Shown here piece by piece: positions 6,476-6,766 of a stretch of DNA of 50,485 bases. This DNA comes from Candidatus Yanofskyibacteriota bacterium (GTDB lineage Bacteria; Patescibacteriota; Minisyncoccia; 2-02-FULL-40-12; GWA2-44-9): assembly GCA_020847715.1 (NCBI GenBank), contig JADLBM010000006.1, positions 1-50,485 of the forward strand, in the 5' to 3' direction. The translations under genes and the position numbers were made by a program. Position 1 is the stretch's first letter. Each line of letters begins with the position of its first letter. The notes beneath the pieces are model-generated. The model did not search any database. It had not been told where the DNA came from and saw nothing but the letters and a program-made list of their open reading frames with translations.

Positions 6476-6548
6476 CCGCCCTTAGCTCAGTTGGTAGAGC
6501 TGCTCCCTCTTAAGGAGAAGGTCGTAGGTTCGAATCCTACAGGGCGGA
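6476..6548 (+). tRNA. tRNA-Lys(CTT)
   Basis: CCGCCCT/AGGGCGG acceptor, TAGCTCAGTTGGTAGAGC D arm, loop CTCTTAA, T arm GTAGG TTCGAAT CCTAC. Confidence 0.9.
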
Positions 6549-6551
6549 CTG

Positions 6552-6593
6552 ATACAGAAAGAAGGCGCCCATTCGGGTGCCTTCTTTCTGTAT
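6552..6593 (+). terminator. Perfect long hairpin after tRNA-Lys
   Basis: ATACAGAAAGAAGGC...GCCTTCTTTCTGTAT inverted repeat. Confidence 0.75.
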
Positions 6594-6597
6594 GTGG

Positions 6598-6730
6598 GTG
6601 GCCCGCTGTGGATTCGAAGCCCGGAGCGATGTGGCGGCAGGAGCTGACACCGCGAGGGCCGGAGCCCGAAGGCGAGCGGCTCAGACCGTGAGCCGTTCGA
6701 CCGGAGGGTGAATCCTACAGGGCGGACCAC
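6598..6730 (+). repeat. tRNA-3'-end-mimicking palindromic element, copy A (tRNA-Lys)
   Basis: 5' arm GTGGCCCGCTGTGGATTCGAA is an imperfect reverse complement of the 3' arm TGAATCCTACAGGGCGGACCAC; GAATCCTACAGGGCGGAC (6710-6727) is an exact copy of the tRNA-Lys 3' end (6532-6549). Confidence 0.85.
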
Positions 6731-6734
6731 ATGA

Positions 6735-6766
6735 AACTAAAACACCCCGCAAGGGGTGTTTTAGTT
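6735..6766. terminator. Bidirectional hairpin between element A and the 3D-domain gene
   Basis: AACTAAAACACCCCGCAAGGGGTGTTTTAGTT. Confidence 0.8.

Follow-up and report, generated by a model that had tools for sequence, protein, structure and literature searches.

What is the hairpin-rich segment that lies directly behind a tRNA-Lys gene in this Patescibacteria genome, and that ends in a copy of the tRNA's own 3' end? The window, i.e., the whole stretch of 50,485 nucleotides that was analysed, belongs to a genome of 687 kb in 26 contigs that is 94% complete (G000 below). The Lys unit (6476–6766) is laid out as follows.

6476–6549, plus strand: tRNA-Lys(ctt), by ARAGORN and Rfam; its bases 57–74 (6532–6549) are the arm template.
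6552–6593, plus strand: hairpin 1 (arms 6552–6570 and 6575–6593), immediately 3' of tRNA-Lys, 95% complementary by repeat search.
6598–6618, plus strand: inverted arm GTGGCCCGCTGTGGATTCGAA, the 5' side of stem P1, an imperfect reverse complement of the T-loop, T-stem and acceptor 3' strand of tRNA-Lys (sequence, and arm statistics over 101 units).
6619–6709, plus strand: three-way-junction core, comprising P2 with a GGA/GA internal loop and an AGNA-type loop, and P3 (fold, covariation, and a covariance model match over 6605–6722 at 77.5 bits).
6710–6727, plus strand: exact 18-nt direct copy GAATCCTACAGGGCGGAC of tRNA-Lys bases 57–74, the 3' side of P1 (sequence and repeat search).
6735–6766, plus strand: second hairpin, perfect, 3' of the direct copy (repeat search).

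These parts are the ones described in the initial annotation; the tRNA and its hairpin, the inverted arm, the exact copy and the hairpin after it were all present. The direct copy sits 178 bp from the original, and the chance expected for an exact 18-mer within 400 nt is about 6 x 10-9. CA comes next after the copy, which therefore reads ...ACCA, and the hairpin at 6735–6766 is probably the original downstream sequence of the tRNA-Lys gene. Folding, which the initial annotation had proposed as a check, gave the Lys unit a better fold than 200 of 200 shuffles, with z scores of -4.4 for the plus strand and -3.4 for the minus strand. A single promoter-like site was found, upstream of the tRNA-Arg/tRNA-Lys pair, and none within the unit.

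Upstream of tRNA-Lys there is also a mirror-type element, at 6396–6461 of the window, in which a copied tRNA 5' end (ATCCGCCCTTAGCTCAG) is followed by a pair of GC hairpins and then by the rest of the D-loop, TTGGTAGAG. It stands 78 nt before the tRNA. Comparable 5' copies, broken in the D-loop, precede a few other tRNAs: Arg(gcg) in this genome, and the tRNAs for Ala, Val and Thr at loci L127, L177 and L144, respectively. The control gave no such copies at that score.

When the Lys unit was compared with its own genome by BLAST, there were several partial matches, with most significant ones just behind tRNA genes, and the same layout was repeated there: tRNA, hairpin, an inverted arm of the GGATTCGAA type, core, and a copy of the tRNA 3' end. 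A covariance model built from ten units found 15 good copies in this genome, and 14 of the 15 lay directly behind a tRNA on the strand of that tRNA, a placement that takes in about 0.4% of the genome. Units with variant cores were found behind tRNA-Phe and tRNA-Arg(gcg) by reading the sequence; overall there are at least 16 units for the 45 tRNAs of the genome. Of the 75 units in this genome and its relatives taken together, 60 had a same-strand tRNA immediately upstream. The core is about 85–92 nt long and the unit about 170 nt. The window holds four units, behind tRNA-Lys, tRNA-Phe and two tRNA-Met genes, the last three of which are these.

8678–8864, plus strand: second unit, behind tRNA-Phe (8605–8677), with a hairpin, inverted arm (8726–8744), variant core and direct copy (8846–8864); weak covariance model match over 8731–8857 at 17.2 bits.
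43926–44036, minus strand: third unit (span of the model match), behind tRNA-Met (44091–44163, minus strand), 105.8 bits.
44384–44494, plus strand: fourth unit (span of the model match), behind tRNA-Met (44258–44330), 99 bits.

The core of the Phe unit in a sister species is 90% identical to that of the Phe unit here. A second palindromic repeat family, acttggccactcc...gtatgaaggaagtggctggccaagtgtcctgagcgcataggcgcgaaggact, was seen at 44501–44577, and behind tRNA-Val(tac) and tRNA-Ile(tat) near 10590–10843; its members adjoin tRNA 3' ends or come after the tail copy of a unit.

The architecture of the unit consists of P1, which is the tRNA-derived stem, of P2 with its conserved GGA/GA internal loop and AGNA-type loop, and of P3, which closes the three-way junction. 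In a plain MAFFT alignment of ten units of one genome, whose structure was derived from the folds of the members, two-sided changes occurred in 24 of 35 pairs. Among 111 distinct units, aligned by fitting to the model and hence leaning towards it, two-sided changes occurred in 33 of the 35 pairs and 89.9% of cells were paired; the two-sided cells numbered 915, where shuffles gave 259 and slid controls no more than 213. P1 was 85% paired in the covariation alignment, and the GGA/GA loop was conserved in the unit alignment. In P2 and P3, G-U pairs outnumbered A-C mismatches by 66 to 26 (p = 4 x 10-5), an excess which argues for a functional RNA on the tRNA strand. Where sister species have a unit behind the same tRNA, 31 stem pairs survived by two changes, eight by one, and six were broken, so that resident copies look constrained. 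Judged from the sequences, the structure appears to be either constrained in place or renewed from constrained copies. Covariation thus backs the proposal, made from the Lys unit, of a multi-branch fold with a tRNA-derived closing stem. In many relatives (e.g., loci L166, L161, L063 and L092), the inverted arm is often abutted by a second hairpin, whose loop is of the ACTGCT type (gagccaactgcttggctcg); this hairpin recurs across families and is outside the covariance model.

The search of relatives with covariance models, also suggested in the initial annotation, found matches in 39 of the 60 nearest-relative genomes, this one counted, with 0–20 per genome. In a phylum-wide sample, with a stricter threshold and a filter, 34 of 294 genomes had matches. 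A motif scan of named genomes found at least 80 loci, in Patescibacteria (Yanofsky-, Kaiser-, Magasanik-, Uhr- and Taylorbacteria, and others) and in Elusimicrobiota, and about 65 among the matches listed were within 300 nt behind a tRNA. In Elusimicrobiota, where the units were found by pattern, four genomes have from 1 to 18 copies. The initial annotation had made its interpretation depend on similar units next to tRNAs in related genomes and on covariation of the outer stem; since relatives carry units behind tRNAs and covariation supports the fold, the interpretation is not refuted and is, taken as a whole, partly supported. Units occur behind tRNAs of all 20 amino acids. In genome G050 (locus L071, 1034–1426 and 1501–1618), a unit lies behind the tmRNA, whose 3' end it copies directly; this single tmRNA case indicates that it is the T-arm/acceptor end which is targeted, rather than the identity of the tRNA. 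The patchy presence of the units, with 0–20 copies per genome, indicates that the RNA is non-essential. Eight pattern matches in viral contigs, none of them near a tRNA, were set aside as chance, and a match in a Bryobacterales sequence (L132) looks like chance too. At L090, a group I intron (RF00028; 1763–2054, minus strand) was seen just upstream of a unit, where it probably interrupts a tRNA gene missed by ARAGORN. A literature search, partial in its coverage, found no prior description of the Patescibacteria units.

The RtT RNA (rttR) of the E. coli tyrT locus, Rfam family RF00391, has been an orphan for more than 30 years and is known mostly from gammaproteobacteria. Like the units here, RtT lies directly behind a tRNA and ends in a copy of the tRNA 3' end. 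The initial annotation rightly named tyrT as the nearest precedent, and the likeness is closer than was supposed: the inverted 5' arm, then taken for an additional feature of the present units, is also carried by RtT, where it pairs with the tail copy to form the same P1 stem in RF00391. Beside its closing stem RtT has GAUGAGAAG, as does the Gln unit here, with a close variant, GACGAGAAG, in the Asn unit. Tandem copies are spaced by 178 nt for RtT and by about 170 nt for the units here, and GA-rich internal loops may be shared, the units having the GGA/GA loop and RtT a reported tandem GA motif (PMC7657543). Copy number varies in both as well; of 5426 complete E. coli genomes, 4717 (87%) have RtT, at 1 to 14 places each, and about 13% lack it. 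The differences are that the core sequence and inner branching are not those of RtT, that the units are much more widespread and, unlike RtT, reach 20 per genome behind different tRNAs, and that a strong hairpin between tRNA and unit is usual in this genus and not evident in E. coli. RF00391 gave no match at E<10 to 6380–6780 of the window; its best score in this genome was 14.2 bits, for the tRNA-Ser(tga) unit, against a cut-off of 45, and in 13 further loci none reached the gathering threshold. No Rfam family fits the units. When the new-family model was run on a 1.4-kb rttR locus, the three RtT copies were the three best places, with weak scores of 11–13 bits. Because RF00391 fails here and the new model scores RtT weakly, we file the units as RtT-like rather than as RF00391, and the two may be linked either by descent or by architecture alone.

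On balance, we think it probable that the units are RtT-like tRNA-trailer RNAs that form part of tRNA transcripts, are probably released when the tRNA 3' end is processed, and disperse among tRNA genes with arms derived from the target. The unit would be read within the tRNA transcript, from the tRNA promoter, and the core would fold as a three-way junction whose closing stem has a copy of the neighbouring tRNA 3' end as its 3' strand. The normal tRNA 3'-processing enzymes would probably cut at the real tRNA 3' end and also at the tRNA-type end of the copy, and these cuts would free a small RNA of about 150–170 nt that ends like the neighbouring tRNA. The core would spread between tRNA (and tmRNA) genes by landing directly behind the 3' end, with both arms taken from the new neighbour, so that the tRNA would stay intact, and a unit could be lost again between the 18-nt direct repeats. 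The suggestion in the initial annotation that the RNA is processed like a tRNA end fits the RefSeq annotation of E. coli rttR, which ends exactly at the CCA of the tail copy. RtT has been described as liberated from tRNA operon transcripts, and in Actinobacillus it lies near tRNA-Asn and tRNA-Lys, with Northern signals (PMC4986893). As a counterpoint to release, hairpin 1 could stop transcription before the unit; a terminator scan found no canonical terminator between tRNA-Lys and the unit, hairpin 1 included. A stress role for the unit RNA is only an analogy with RtT, for which stringent-response effects have been mentioned (PMC4986893). Induction of RtT in the cold has been reported in Thioalkalivibrio (PMC8092127).

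Units come and go from gene to gene, and some orthologous sites are filled in one species and empty in another. Two such sites are in the window, each defined by alignment of two loci.

10844–10918, minus strand: tRNA-Ile(tat), empty site here, filled in sister species G002.
10670–10743, minus strand: tRNA-Val(tac), empty site here, filled in G002.

At both loci the gene order and downstream sequence are the same in the window and in G002, and the sequence behind the tRNA in G000 is the sequence behind the direct copy in G002. Read from the alignments, the two sites would be compatible with either gain or loss. The core behind tRNA-Met in G000 is 96% identical to the core behind tRNA-Ser(cga) in G002, against a median core identity of 65%; the arms of the pair match their respective tRNAs, and their hairpins show no relation. 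Such near-identity behind different tRNAs indicates movement between genes, or perhaps an exchange of cores between resident units by gene conversion. With these cores and the filled and empty sites, the term miniature tRNA-targeting element, used in the initial annotation, finds support. Tandem unit pairs about 164–173 nt apart were found in G029, G050, G001 and JAGOVW010000046.1. The filled and empty sites, the tandem copies about 170 nt apart, the patchy copy number and the near-identical cores would also suit a purely selfish DNA element of the MITE or att kind, which duplicates an 18-nt target as it inserts at tRNA 3' ends and whose structure serves its own movement with no gain for the host. 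We regard this as unlikely, if by some way the strongest rival: such an element does not account for stems kept by two-sided changes in same-tRNA copies of sister species, which make resident copies look constrained, or for the G-U bias, which points to RNA; moreover, terminal repeats of its own were not found, the arms all being target-derived, and no transposase is linked. No integrase match was found in this 94% complete genome. Copy number was unrelated to tyrosine recombinase genes (Spearman -0.01) and tracked none of the gene counts for reverse transcriptase, Y1 transposase or tyrosine recombinase, each of which was therefore rejected as the mobiliser. RVT_1 is absent in four genomes with at least eight copies, this genome among them, and unit-rich genomes may do without reverse transcriptases and Y1 transposases. 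Integrative elements whose att sites are tRNA 3' ends share with the units the target, the direct repeat of the tRNA 3' end and the intact tRNA; unlike them, the units are about 170 bp, have no genes, and have arms rewritten per tRNA, including an inverted one. REP/BIME palindromic repeats are likewise short, hairpin-rich, non-coding and present in many copies, and rtT similarity inside some enterobacterial BIMEs was noted in a 2010 survey (PMC2965389); unlike REP/BIME repeats, the units have a fixed place behind tRNAs, tRNA-derived arms and a covarying three-way junction.

Arm statistics were drawn from the 101 units with both arms. Each of bases 57–73 of the direct copy matched the unit's own tRNA in 83–97 of the 101, and bases 54–55 matched in fewer than 10; the copy therefore starts sharply at 56/57, and it ends at base 74, also a sharp boundary. 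A direct-copy score of 12 was reached by 88 of 207 with the real tail and by none with a control tail taken from another tRNA. In the inverted arm, bases 54 to about 64 matched almost always, and matching then decayed to chance. At bases 61–66, a departure from the tRNA was common to both arms in only nine cells, and a single arm kept the tRNA base in 147 (41 and 106), so that each arm tracks the tRNA and not its partner arm. Because TTCGAA is palindromic, the inverted arm could also have been copied directly from the 5' strand of the T-stem; this was rejected, as bases 57, 59 and 60, with part of the acceptor, follow the reverse complement. Beyond the T-stem some direct copies have degenerated, so that the tRNA-like 3' end does not always stay intact. 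In G000 and its relatives nearly all tRNA genes encode C74 and most lack the rest of CCA, and tail copies likewise stop at C74. About ten tail copies read CCA where the gene does not; this was not accepted as proof of an RNA intermediate, given that the opposite is seen too and that CCA may have been encoded in the original gene. The match of both arms to the tRNA means that a strand swap would cost few pairs, and arms and tRNA change together between sister species (e.g., tRNA-Gly(tcc), Trp and Asp). A cis-acting folding switch, in which the original tRNA 3' end is paired with the inverted arm and its place in the tRNA is taken by the copy, so that maturation is regulated, could produce this pattern. 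It is nonetheless improbable: mismatches of the inverted arm to the tRNA have no G-U bias (24 versus 19, p = 0.54), which fits copied, drifting sequence and not selected pairing and led us to reject RNA pairing as the cause of the match, and the acceptor part has been lost from the inverted arm as by drift.

A pseudo-symmetric, hairpin-rich unit with tRNA-derived ends also recalls the attC sites of integrons, in which case folded single-stranded DNA would serve for recombination and other DNA would be captured next to tRNA genes. This is very improbable, since the strands are not alike but biased to G-U on one, no gene cassettes were seen between units, and copy number is independent of tyrosine recombinase genes. 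That the locus is a mere tandem duplication of a tRNA end plus an ordinary terminator, with no unit of its own, might be thought from tRNA-Asp in this genome and tRNA-Tyr in G002, where the following hairpin is also duplicated, but this reading is refuted by the shared core of about 85–92 nt, whose conserved motifs and covariation are common to unrelated tRNAs.

For RtT-like trailer RNAs, then, the anatomy, the conserved structure, the strand bias, the filled and empty sites, the tRNA-tracking arms, the near-identical cores and the constraint in same-tRNA sister copies are directly supported here; transcription, processing and release of the unit RNA are inferred. A further reading, which we offer tentatively and with some doubt, is that of a mobile RNA unit that rewrites its ends at each move, taking a direct copy of bases 57–74 and an inverted copy of the T-arm from the target tRNA or tmRNA by RNA-templated or template-switching synthesis. 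Such a unit would always be flanked by host tRNA sequence, and E. coli RtT would be the first example seen of a class that extends over distant phyla. In sum, Patescibacteria and Elusimicrobiota have the anatomy of RtT, with a different core, behind tRNAs of all 20 amino acids and behind a tmRNA, and genomes of about 0.7 Mb that retain little else hold as many as 20 copies. These natural copies supply covariation-tested structure, filled and empty sites, and tRNA-tracking arms, and so make the nature, spread and tRNA-like end of RtT-type RNAs directly testable.
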